Part shown: piece by piece, positions 1 through 5,861 of the stretch
How positions within the stretch are numbered: position 1 is the stretch's first letter
Layout: every line of letters begins with the position of its first letter
Assembly (NCBI RefSeq): GCF_003932505.1
Contig: NZ_QZMU01000001.1
Coordinates: 1,984,001-2,048,000 of the forward strand
Source: Thiohalobacter thiocyanaticus
GTDB lineage: Bacteria > Pseudomonadota > Gammaproteobacteria > Thiohalobacterales > Thiohalobacteraceae
Length of the DNA stretch: 64,000 nucleotides
Direction of reading: 5' to 3'
Translations under genes and position numbers: made by a program
Notes under the pieces: generated by a model
Seen by the model: only the letters and a program-made list of their open reading frames with translations
The model's database searches: none
What the model was told of the DNA's origin: nothing

Positions 1-16
1 GGCGCGCATTATGCTT
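1..16 (+). promoter_or_regulatory. Putative sigma-54 (-24/-12) promoter of the cytochrome-porin operon
   Basis: The first 16 bases (GGCGCGCATTATGCTT) have GG and GC separated by exactly 10 bases, followed by T. They resemble the consensus TGGCACG-N4-TTGCW, whose first T would lie just outside the window. Transcription would begin near base 26, leaving a very short leader before the ATG at 40. The operon downstream encodes an NtrC-type sigma-54 activator, so autoregulation is plausible. The match is inferred by eye, and the upstream activator sites are outside the window. Confidence 0.4.
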
Positions 17-39
17 AAAACAGGACTGTGATCAGGGCA

Positions 40-330
40 ATGGACAAGATGGCGATCTGGAGAGCAGCGGTACTGGCGTCCGTGTTTACGGCGGTGGGGC
101 TGGGGCAGCTGTTCGTGTACAGCGACGCGCATGCCCGGCAGGAGAGCGACAAGGCCGTTGAAGAACGGGAGCAGGCTGCCGGGGCCGAAACTCGCTCGCC
201 ACGCCTCAGGTTCCGCTCCGGCGGGCCGGCGTGCATGTGTCTGAGCGGGCTGAGCGAAGCGGATATCCAGGCTGCGCAGAGCAGGCAGGAGGGTGGTGCC
301 GAAAAGCTGGAGTCCATTATCCAGGATTGA
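40..330 (+). CDS. Small exported or membrane-anchored protein, cytochrome-porin operon
   Basis: A 96-residue protein from the ATG at 40; a GTG at 28 in the same frame would add four residues. It has an N-terminal hydrophobic segment (about residues 4-25) that acts as a signal peptide or anchor. A charged, Glu/Gln-rich stretch follows, then a conserved-looking block around residues 64-75 containing Ala-Cys-Met-Cys and a Gly-Leu-Ser motif. The Cys-x-Cys could bind metal or form a disulfide. It is the first gene of a six-gene block with a multihaem cytochrome and a porin. The layout recalls the small ExtJ protein of Ext selenite/tellurite operons, but that is a guess from context. No function is established. 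Confidence 0.7.
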   Translation: MDKMAIWRAAVLASVFTAVGLGQLFVYSDAHARQESDKAVEEREQAAGAETRSPRLRFRSGGPACMCLSGLSEADIQAAQSRQEGGAEKLESIIQD

Positions 331-354
331 TGAATTAATCAGGAGGAGGAAGCG

Positions 355-3667: not shown

Positions 3668-5070
3668 GCGCCACTGCGGCTGAGACGAATGATCGCGAAC
3701 CGGCTGATCGTCCGGTTGTCCTTGTCTGTGAGGACGATGTGGCGATGCGCGAACTGGTGGCCAGCGTGATATCCCGGCTCGACGTCGATGTGGTTCAGGC
3801 TGACAGTTCACAGCATGCCCTGGATTATCTCGAAAACAACGATGTGGCGCTGCTCGTCACCGACCTGAAGATGCCGGGTGTGGATGGAATGCAGCTGCTG
3901 AAGTTCGCACGCTCCCACAATCCCATGACGCAGGTTGCGATCATTACCGGCTACGCGTCCGTGGAATCAGCCATTGATGCCCTGAAATCCGGGGCGTTCG
4001 ATTACATCAAGAAACCCTTCGATAACGATGAGCTGTTCTGCGTGGTCGAGCGCGCGCTGGAGCACTATCAGCTCCGGCGCGAAAACCATGAGCTGCGCGA
4101 GCAGAACCGCCTGATCCGCGGGCAAGGCGAGGGCTTTGTCGGGCGCTCCCAGTCGGTTGCCCGCATGCGCAAGCTGATTGATGCGGCGGCCGAATTCGAC
4201 TGTACCGTGTTGATCACCGGCGAGAGCGGCTGCGGCAAGGAGCTGGTTGCGCGCCAGATACACGAACAAAGTGACCGCAGTGACAAGAGTTTTGTTGCGA
4301 TCAACTGCGCCGCCATTCCTGAAAATATCATTGAAAGCGAGTTGTTCGGCTATGTGCGTGGCGCCTTTACCGGCGCCGAGCGCAACAAGGCCGGTCTGTT
4401 CGAGGCGGCTGATGGCGGGACACTGTTTCTCGACGAGATCAACAATGCTTCGTTGTCCCTGCAGGCCAAGCTGCTGCGTGTGCTGCAGGATGGCGCATTC
4501 TATCGAATGGGCGATAACTCGCCTCGCAGCGTGAACGTCAGGGTACTCGCGGCCAGCAATCGTTCCATACAGGACCTGATATCCCGGGGTGAATTCCGCG
4601 AAGACCTGTATTACCGGCTCAAGGTGATCGAGATCCATATCCCTGCCCTGCGCGAGCGCAGGGATGATATTCCCCTGCTGGTGAATCATCTTGTCGCCTA
4701 TCTCTCGGCCCGTCTGGGAAAACGCGTGCGCGGTGTCAGCACCCGGGTGCTGGGTGCCTTCATGCGCTACGAGTGGCCCGGTAATGTAAGAGAGCTGGAG
4801 AACATGCTGGAACGCATGATCATCCTGGCCGAGGGGGATGTCATTGATGTCGACCTGTTGCCGCCCGAAATTACCGAATCCCGCGAGCAGGTCGGCAAGG
4901 CGCTGGATTACATGGCGCCGCAGAGCCTGGAAGAGATCGAGGCCTATTTCATCAAGAAGACGCTGCGTGAGACCGGCGGCGACCGCGGCCTGACGGCGGA
5001 GATTCTCGGGATTGACAAATCCACCCTGTGGCGCAAGATCAAGCGCTACCAGCTCAATGACAAGGAATAA
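3664..5070 (+). CDS. NtrC-family sigma-54-dependent response regulator
   Basis: 468 residues. The N-terminal receiver domain (about 17-130) has phospho-acceptor Asp67 in VTDLKMPG and the conserved Lys in IKKPF. The central AAA+ domain (about 155-385) has Walker A GESGCGKE, the sigma-54 contact loop GAFTGA, Walker B TLFLDE and the arginine-finger region. The C-terminal Fis-type helix-turn-helix (about 428-468) ends in LWRKIKRYQL. When phosphorylated by the upstream kinase it should activate sigma-54 promoters. Two candidates lie in the same operon (1-16 and 2088-2103). Confidence 0.95.
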   Translation: MSATAAETNDREPADRPVVLVCEDDVAMRELVASVISRLDVDVVQADSSQHALDYLENNDVALLVTDLKMPGVDGMQLLKFARSHNPMTQVAIITGYASVESAIDALKSGAFDYIKKPFDNDELFCVVERALEHYQLRRENHELREQNRLIRGQGEGFVGRSQSVARMRKLIDAAAEFDCTVLITGESGCGKELVARQIHEQSDRSDKSFVAINCAAIPENIIESELFGYVRGAFTGAERNKAGLFEAADGGTLFLDEINNASLSLQAKLLRVLQDGAFYRMGDNSPRSVNVRVLAASNRSIQDLISRGEFREDLYYRLKVIEIHIPALRERRDDIPLLVNHLVAYLSARLGKRVRGVSTRVLGAFMRYEWPGNVRELENMLERMIILAEGDVIDVDLLPPEITESREQVGKALDYMAPQSLEEIEAYFIKKTLRETGGDRGLTAEILGIDKSTLWRKIKRYQLNDKE

Positions 5071-5072
5071 TC

Positions 5073-5861
5073 ATGAACAAACCTGACATGCGCCACCTCA
5101 GGCTGTTGATCAGCGGATCTCTTCTGGCATGCATGCTGGTCCAGCCGGCGCTTGCAGAGACGGCGGATGAACGGCTGGAACGGTTGGAACGCGAGGTCAG
5201 GGAGCTGCGCGAGCTGCTGCAGGAGCAGAGCGAGACCGCGGCCGAAGCAGCCGAACGCCGGGAGGCGGCGCCGCAGGCGGAGCAGCGTCACAGCTATGGC
5301 CAGCCCGTTAGCACAGCCCGGCGGGGCGCCATGATGCGCTACTACATCAGCGGCGAGGCGCTGGGAAGTCAGCCGCCCGCTGCCGTGGAGGCGACTGTGG
5401 CCGGCCGCGTGGCCGAAACCCATGCGATTTCCTTCGACCCCGTCGAGCACGACGTCGCGGGTGCAGGTCCGTTCTCCGGTTACCATGACCCGGCAGCCTA
5501 TCCCTATGCAGCGGTCGAACTCGTTGGCGAACTGCCGATCGCGGAGCCGGGTGAATATGAATTCGTCATCTATCCCAAGCCGGCCCGCCAGGGCGGTTCC
5601 AACATTTCCACCCGTATGAGTGCCTGGCTGAGCGTGAATGATGAGCCGGTGCTCGAGTTCAGGGATCAGCCCAGTTGGGCCGGCCAGCGTGGAATGGTGC
5701 GGCTCGAGCGGGGGGTGCACCGCATCCGGCTCTGGGCCGTGGCAGCCTCGGATGGCTTCGGGCCCAGCCCGACGGAGAGTCTGCTGCTGCTCGAATACAA
5801 GGGGCCGGCTGATGCGTCACCGCGGCCGCTGGATGACCTGCGTCTGAGACCCGGTGACTGA
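5073..5861 (+). CDS. Exported coiled-coil protein with C-terminal beta-sandwich-like domain
   Basis: 262 residues, 2 bp after the response regulator gene, so in the same transcript. The signal peptide (residues about 1-28) ends Ala-Leu-Ala. It is followed by a Glu/Arg/Leu-rich coiled coil (about 30-70), then a Tyr/Pro-rich C-terminal domain (about 88-250). That domain has the alternating pattern of PA14- or carbohydrate-module-like beta sandwiches, including a GEYEFVIYPKPARQGG strand-turn. No known family was recognised with confidence. Its position suggests a periplasmic or outer-membrane accessory of the cytochrome-porin module. Confidence 0.65.
   Translation: MNKPDMRHLRLLISGSLLACMLVQPALAETADERLERLEREVRELRELLQEQSETAAEAAERREAAPQAEQRHSYGQPVSTARRGAMMRYYISGEALGSQPPAAVEATVAGRVAETHAISFDPVEHDVAGAGPFSGYHDPAAYPYAAVELVGELPIAEPGEYEFVIYPKPARQGGSNISTRMSAWLSVNDEPVLEFRDQPSWAGQRGMVRLERGVHRIRLWAVAASDGFGPSPTESLLLLEYKGPADASPRPLDDLRLRPGD

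Follow-up and report, generated by a model that had tools for sequence, protein, structure and literature searches.

A 14-gene cluster of Thiohalobacter thiocyanaticus appears to join an outer-membrane module of the Ext type to a cytoplasmic sulfur relay, and to carry its own regulators. The cluster straddles the start of the window, i.e., the whole 64,000-nucleotide stretch analyzed here (RefSeq assembly GCF_003932505.1, contig NZ_QZMU01000001.1, positions 1,984,001 to 2,048,000 of the forward strand; C1:1984001-2048000 of the genome we refer to as G000). The host, likely a sulfur oxidizer, has a genome of 3.3 Mb in two contigs that is 92% complete. In the reading that we favor, with a probability of roughly 0.55, the genes form three groups, each behind a pair of sequence boxes and a -24/-12 site; they are likely switched on by the cluster's own cysteine-rich histidine kinase and NtrC-type activator, and would convey sulfane sulfur across the outer membrane, for delivery to cytoplasmic carriers of the TusA/DsrE type. 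The gene order and its conservation, the three box-paired promoters, the matching distributions of the kinase and the porin ExtI, and the invariant cysteines can be read directly from the sequences compared. The DsrE fold of one of the small genes is evident in a structural model.

As we picture the mechanism, ExtI would admit the substrate, an ExtH-like rhodanese would hold its sulfane sulfur, and the penta- and trihaem cytochromes would carry electrons; YedE would then import the sulfur, and the TusA and DsrE-type proteins would relay it. The kinase would use its cysteines to sense either the imported sulfane sulfur or redox. The activator would bind boxes of the ATTGCAA type, and read-through from the third promoter would result in positive autoregulation of the activator. 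That the linked activator is the protein that binds the boxes would be the simplest reading of the sequence patterns.

The window edge cuts the cluster, with eight genes upstream and six inside. The 6.3 kb that precede the window contain a tusA gene, a YeeE/YedE transporter gene, a second tusA, a DsrE-fold gene, two small genes, an extH-like gene and the gene of a pentahaem cytochrome. Positions in this region are given on L005, which covers 16 kb up to and including window base 1000, so that an L005 position equals the window position plus 15000. The original prediction, made from the window sequence, had listed six genes, namely those of a small exported protein, a tri-haem cytochrome, a porin, a PAS kinase, a sigma-54 activator and an exported coiled-coil protein, and all six were found where it had placed them. 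The system itself begins further upstream than the window edge, given that the same box pair precedes tusA-yedE and extH.

Promoters, boxes and transcription units

Candidate -24/-12 sites were scored with an unfitted matrix built from the sigma-54 consensus and run over fixed intervals with a threshold of 12.5 bits. We refer to the promoter before the first tusA as P1, to that before extH as P2, and to that between the pentahaem and trihaem genes as P3. Sites of at least 12.5 bits were found at P1 in 24 of 29 loci, at P2 in 18 of 40, and at P3 in 32 of 42. Control intervals gave 5 sites in 162 in total: ExtH-pentahaem 0/34, trihaem-ExtI 1/46, ExtI-kinase 4/43 and kinase-activator 0/39. With sites in 0, 1, 4 and 0 loci, respectively, these four intervals were rejected as sigma-54 promoters.

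In the host, P3 (TGGCGCGCATTATGCT) is at L005:15000-15015, or 1..15 on the plus strand of the window, its first base being the one that precedes the window. This site had been proposed in the original prediction and is real, although it starts one base before the window; its conservation in 32 of 42 loci contrasts with the 5 of 162 controls. Its two ATTGCAA-type boxes (L005:14900-14905 and 14937-14942) begin 100 and 63 bases upstream of the first base of P3. P2 (TGGCACGAAGGCTGCA; L005:11973-11988) also has two boxes, and so does P1 (CGGCATGGATTGTGCT; L005:8778-8793), which scores under 12.5 bits and was located via its boxes.

Across the loci, where sites had been chosen without regard to boxes, the pair found upstream of them consists of ATTGCAAATTGA and TGCAAT. 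At P3 the -24 element is preceded by the two boxes at about -98 and -61, the second one lying at 57-65 and being alignable in 29 of 32 cases; at P1 they stand at about -108 and -69. In the 260 bases upstream, at least one box was present for 32 of 32 P3 sites, 23 of 24 P1 sites and 16 of 18 P2 sites, the background being 0.22 six-mer matches per 250 bases. The full pattern, i.e., boxes plus -24/-12, occurs in 7 of the 9 genomes with ExtI versus 22 of 360 others, and at least two matches to it in 5 of 9 versus 0 of 360. G000 has three full-pattern matches in its 3.3 Mb, every one of them in the cluster.

A second -24/-12 site had been proposed at window 2088-2103, between porin and kinase. It scores 8.5 bits, under the value of 10.0 bits that marks the 95th percentile of the best scores in shuffled extH-upstream stretches, and among the 4 of 43 loci with a site in this interval G000 is not represented; we have therefore abandoned it. 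Adjoining it in the porin-kinase gap, a six-pair GC hairpin without a T-run was seen by eye (window 2101-2119). In a crude scan, neither window 1900-2400 nor L005:13500-15100 contained a sigma-70 match. The proposal of self-regulation by the NtrC-type pair thus gains comparative support from the conserved P3, the boxes and the distribution of the full pattern, and loses its second site.

The genes of kinase and activator overlap by four bases, and in G000 the gap between ExtI and the kinase is free of terminator-like hairpins followed by a T-run, so that the pair could be read from P3, which would close a positive loop. A perfect nine-pair terminator separates extH from the pentahaem gene (L005:13603-13624). 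Terminator-like hairpins are present at this place in 25 of 40 loci, versus 1 of 41 between the pentahaem and trihaem genes, 7 of 43 between ExtI and kinase, and 1 of 36 after the activator. These hairpins suggest that the cell likely produces more ExtH than pentahaem cytochrome.

Conservation and distribution

The loci compared comprise 45 named loci from one scan together with the regions of ExtI-carrying genomes from a class sample. We kept 49 of 56 loci, G000 included, and dropped L046 and L047, with a porin under the cut-off and no cluster, and the duplicates L079, L082, L039, L042 and L044. The gene order recurs across Beta- and Gammaproteobacteria, in hosts that include Thiogranum, Thiobacillus, Thiohalomonas, Thioalkalivibrio and Hydrogenophilus; many of the genera are named as sulfur oxidizers. 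Some host genera are, to our knowledge, not known as such. In 28 of 34 loci, YedE is encoded upstream of ExtH on the same strand and at a distance of at most 2.5 kb. Behind extI, the kinase-activator pair was found in 34 of 38 testable loci (29 by a strict rule, plus five more colinear loci from the gene-order comparison). The four loci without the pair behind extI are L041 and three with a rearranged cluster, namely L081 (Cellvibrio), L085 (Rubrivivax gelatinosus) and L086 (a gammaproteobacterial metagenome-assembled genome), in which yedE and the pentahaem gene have moved downstream of extI. The original prediction had been unable to place the regulatory linkage in any set it could name. The linkage itself stands, and it is no one-off, being conserved over Beta- and Gammaproteobacteria.

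ExtI over the cut-off was found in 9 of the 369 class genomes, G000 included. A kinase homologue at E<=1e-60, among the at most four candidate places scored per genome, was found in exactly these nine genomes, which belong to eight families. Distance matrices correlate with r = 0.74 for ExtI and kinase, 0.93 for kinase and activator, and 0.91 for kinase and YedE; 0 of 500 permutations reached these values, although shared ancestry alone could explain the agreement.

The kinase-activator pair

The sensor histidine kinase is encoded on the plus strand at window 2171..3667 (its start is uncertain, GTG 2171 or ATG 2240) and has PAS, HisKA and HATPase domains. The NtrC-type activator (window 3664..5070, plus strand) has a receiver domain, an AAA+ domain with GAFTGA, and a Fis-type helix-turn-helix. 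Both proteins are thus of the kinds originally predicted. The GAFTGA loop, which we take to be the sigma-54 contact, corresponds to residues 233-238 (window 4360..4377, plus strand) and is at least 95% conserved in 37 sequences. A plasmid-borne origin was rejected: the activator matches 0 of 72,556 plasmid records at E 1e-120.

Hydropathy analysis of the kinase predicts two membrane helices, at about residues 26-45 and 53-72. The loop between them is short and the PAS, HisKA and HATPase domains follow, so that the kinase likely receives its signal in the cytoplasm or within the membrane. Four cysteines, namely Cys322, Cys339, Cys344 and Cys360 (codons within window 3134..3250, plus strand), are shared without exception by the 40 family members compared, and Cys137 is conserved in 37 of 40. 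All five are present in each of the 120 best homologue clusters (of 7331 hits), whose median identity to the window kinase is 51%; in these, 50 positions are invariant, and five of them are cysteines. By comparison, the 16 other HisKA kinases of G000 have cysteine in just 2 of 64 cells at the four positions, and three relatives in the PDB among the matches listed have none there. Cys322, which is 17 residues ahead of Cys339, may stand apart from the others.

The four cysteines sit at the junction of the dimerization and catalytic domains of the kinase. A tentative proposal, which we hold with less than even confidence, is that this kinase is the first member of a new class of intracellular chalcogen sensors, membrane-anchored and without a periplasmic domain, in which the junction cysteines, plus the one ahead of the PAS domain, would bind sulfane sulfur or an iron-sulfur cluster. 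Sulfur delivered by YedE and TusA would then drive a three-promoter sigma-54 regulon that joins the Ext module to the YTD relay.

The Ext components

The outer-membrane porin (391 aa; window 902..2077, plus strand) scores 372.2 bits on the NCBI equivalog model for ExtI, NF040900, for which the cut-off is 150, and 74.9 bits on Porin_O_P. The ExtI model is matched by 10 of 10 aligned porins, the window porin included, and the resemblance to ExtI noticed originally is thereby upheld. A rhodanese gene, whose presence upstream had been thought possible, is indeed there; it encodes an ExtH-like lipoprotein (L005 12079-13548; lipobox identified by eye). In G000 this protein scores 117.7 bits on the ExtH model, under the cut-off of 200. 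The same model is matched by 13 of 13 ExtH-like proteins scanned (best E 6e-34), and a rhodanese-type loop C-x-T-x-x-R, or one near it, is found in 39 of 40 ExtH-like open reading frames.

The pentahaem cytochrome (L005 13657-14910) scores 46.7 bits in G000 on the ExtKL model, under the cut-off of 250. This model is matched by 14 of 14 aligned pentahaem proteins, with a best E of 2.3e-14 that implies scores far below 250. Five haem motifs are present in 39 of 44 pentahaem reading frames, and 4 of the other five are at contig starts. The c-type cytochrome in the window (180 aa; 355..897, plus strand) has three CxxCH motifs, i.e., it is the tri-haem protein that had been predicted, as do 46 of 46 trihaem reading frames. 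None of the multihaem proteins among the 14 genes has more than five haems.

The small exported protein (window 40..330, plus strand) has 96 residues from ATG 40, with GTG 28 also a possible start. Its Cys-x-Cys motif (window 232..240, plus strand), together with a glutamate and an isoleucine, is invariant in 24 of 24 aligned sequences, from 24 of 42 reading frames found. It resembles ExtJ in size and neighborhood. It has no NCBIfam match at E 0.1, and the name ExtJ is absent among its 92 homologues, of which a minority carry names; we did not equate it with Geobacter ExtJ. Its closest named relatives are from Thiohalobacter (COW1_27200 and another entry). The genes extMNOPQS were not recognized among the 14 cluster genes, and no profile search of the genome was made for them.

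The YedE-TusA-DsrE genes

The YeeE/YedE transporter (L005 9219-10691) scores 163.9 bits on PF04143, with a cut-off of 27; its best NCBIfam match is the selenium-named YedE/FdhT, at 150 bits versus a cut-off of 350. The two TusA proteins (L005 8855-9187 and 10738-10989) score 66.8 and 55.9 bits on PF01206, with a cut-off of 28.6. The DsrE-fold protein (L005 11054-11365) has no meaningful match in Pfam or NCBIfam, and a sequence search of the PDB with its alignment gave zero matches. Its AF2 model, with a pLDDT of 95.5, has as its top match in the PDB chain A of the DsrEFH structure 2hy5 (E 2.8e-6, TM 0.79). All 25 sequences aligned with this protein have its Cys61. The two small genes that follow (L005 11375-11641 and 11652-11867) have no meaningful profile match in Pfam or NCBIfam. 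Because of the modeled DsrE-fold match and the invariant Cys61, we regard the genes from yedE through these two as probably YTD-like.

Substrate and alternative readings

We consider it somewhat more probable than its opposite that the substrate is sulfane sulfur. SoxY is present in 9 of 9 ExtI carriers versus 60 of 119 class genomes, and dsrA exceeds its cut-off in 6 of 9 carriers versus 106 of 360 other genomes. The label of a selenite/tellurite module in the original prediction was inherited from Geobacter; the yedE-tusA-dsrE neighbors and the hosts point at least equally to sulfur. The two are not exclusive, because the chemistry overlaps. A requirement for rDsr was rejected, as dsrA exceeds its cut-off in just 6 of the 9 carriers.

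Several observations weigh against the reading of a self-regulated sulfane-sulfur import cluster. The only ExtI that we found with published data, that of Geobacter, is tied to selenite and tellurite (PMC5877670). Only 6 of the 9 carriers have dsrA over its cut-off, beside 106 of 360 other genomes. The carriers G240 and G337 lack the strict full pattern, and in G267 one of two matches is outside the cluster (G267:C14:1977-2088) and possibly marks an extra regulon member. With the threshold at 12.5 bits, 22 of 40 loci have no P2, 10 of 42 no P3 and 5 of 29 no P1, and the P1 site of G000 itself falls under this value. G026 (locus L041) has its kinase on a different contig from the porin. Porin, rhodanese, YedE and cytochromes are all retained in L081, L085 and L086, whose fetched stretches do not contain the pair. 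Lastly, the nine-genome match of kinase and ExtI comes from a search of at most four candidate places per genome, so that remoter homologues elsewhere are possible, and the Fisher values ignore shared ancestry.

An unlikely alternative is that the cluster serves sigma-54-controlled reduction or detoxification of selenite or tellurite; that is, ExtI would admit the oxyanion, the cytochromes would reduce it outside the cell or in the periplasm, and YedE and TusA would handle selenium. Consistent with this are the porin score over the ExtI equivalog cut-off, the ExtH model matches (13/13, best E 6e-34), the implication of Geobacter extI in selenite and tellurite reduction (PMC5877670), and the selenium-named best match of the transporter, even at 150 of 350 bits; furthermore, the parts are retained by relatives in Cellvibrio and Rubrivivax, genera whose names do not refer to sulfur. 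However, in G000 ExtH reaches 117.7 of 200 bits and the pentahaem protein 46.7 of 250, SoxY is in all nine carriers, and the DsrE-fold gene resembles sulfur-relay proteins. A weaker counterargument comes from Geobacter, whose ExtI was proposed to be constitutive on the basis of tests with various phosphate and osmotic conditions; this argument is softened by the up-regulation of ext with Fe(III) and the Fur control cited in the same paper (PMC5877670).

A porin alongside penta- and trihaem cytochromes could also form a conduit through which electrons leave the cell for minerals or partner cells, with the sulfur genes as a separate unit under the same switch. Roles as electron carriers or as partners of a conduit have been discussed for relatives of ExtKL (PMC11976967, PMC10553843). 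We find this quite improbable: none of the 14 genes encodes a protein with more than five haems, the trihaem protein is small, the yedE-tusA-dsrE genes have the same promoter type and boxes, and the published description of the ext cluster sees no analogy to the porin-cytochrome clusters known (PMC5877670). Very improbable, in our estimation, is that the promoters depend on sigma-54 but obey another activator, the linked pair being a passenger that regulates something else. The link of activator to boxes is deduced from sequence, and the separate contigs of kinase and porin in G026 would fit a passenger. Against it, kinase and ExtI co-occur exactly, in 9 of 369 genomes; the pair-less L081, L085 and L086 have neither a plus-strand 12.5-bit site nor a TTGCAA-N28-34-TGCAAT pair; and outside the G000 cluster the box pair occurs at three places, none of them with a -24/-12 at the tested distance.

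Two observations concern sulfur genes elsewhere. In L043 a SoxY-domain gene is located about 1.5 kb upstream of P1 (G014:C27, near base 47015). G000 has two dsrA copies, L093 (G000:C2:31632) and L094 (G000:C1:651021). One copy is accompanied by dsrB and by small genes that by eye resemble dsrEFH, dsrC, dsrM and dsrK, and the other has dsrB and a DsrC-like gene nearby; duplicated dsrAB have been reported for FOKN1 (PMC6504805).

Relation to known systems

With extHIJKLMNOPQS of Geobacter (PMC5877670) the cluster shares an ExtI over the cut-off, an ExtH-like rhodanese lipoprotein, a small protein of about 100 residues and an ExtKL-related cytochrome. It differs in that ExtH and ExtKL are here under the NCBI cut-offs, and in its yedE-tusA-dsrE genes, kinase-activator pair and sigma-54 promoters, which are absent from the Geobacter gene list printed in that paper. 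With YTD, or yeeE-tusA-dsrEFH type II (PMC13047784, PMC12998232, PMC13293266), it shares the transporter, TusA, a DsrE-fold protein with an invariant cysteine, two small genes, and the order in which these are listed; the extra tusA at the front, the joined outer-membrane ext module, and the sigma-54 promoter with paired boxes set it apart. Among the phyla examined in PMC12998232, complete YTD was found solely in Desulfobacterota and Nitrospirota, while type II is also placed in Pseudomonadota (PMC13293266); these two papers dispute the role of YTD.

TspS/TspR of Acidithiobacillus caldus (PMC6335251) is likewise a sigma-54 kinase-regulator pair beside sulfur genes that acts via an upstream activator sequence. 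That sequence is TGTCCCAAATGGGACA, which we did not search for, and its target is sox, whereas here there are paired ATTGCAA boxes and ext plus yedE-tusA neighbors. SoxT1A/SoxT1B with SoxR likewise couple YeeE-like proteins to sulfur import and signaling, but SoxR is a transcriptional repressor, unlike the kinase-activator pair (PMC11582611). Among the titles and abstract openings listed from the open-license literature, we found no description of the ext-YTD linkage, its kinase-activator pair or its boxes.

In one conserved, regulated unit of Beta- and Gammaproteobacteria, the cluster unites two puzzles, namely the selenite/tellurite porin cluster ext, which belongs to metal reducers, and YTD with its disputed role. 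Its promoters and boxes predict which genes should be co-produced. How sulfur oxidizers sense sulfur has been called poorly understood (PMC11582611); for some of them, the kinase and its five invariant cysteines would offer a concrete candidate.

The last gene and its neighbor

The last gene (window 5073..5861, plus strand) encodes an accessory exported protein of 262 residues, with a signal-like start (by eye), a helix at 31-61 and a PA14-like beta-sandwich in a model of pLDDT 81. The 31-residue helix and signal-like start agree with the exported coiled-coil protein originally predicted. The sandwich is structurally most similar to PA14 domains (E 2e-7; TM 0.45, normalized to the query length), and the closest named relative is FOKN1_3071 of Thiohalobacter. 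The original prediction could assign this gene to no set it could name; it is accessory, standing behind the activator in 11 of 33 loci. As a guess, the protein perhaps binds cell wall or surface sugar. A beta-carbonic anhydrase gene on the minus strand (window 5890-6507) converges on this last gene; none was seen at this place in the remaining compared loci except for L048, which has one at the equivalent position.

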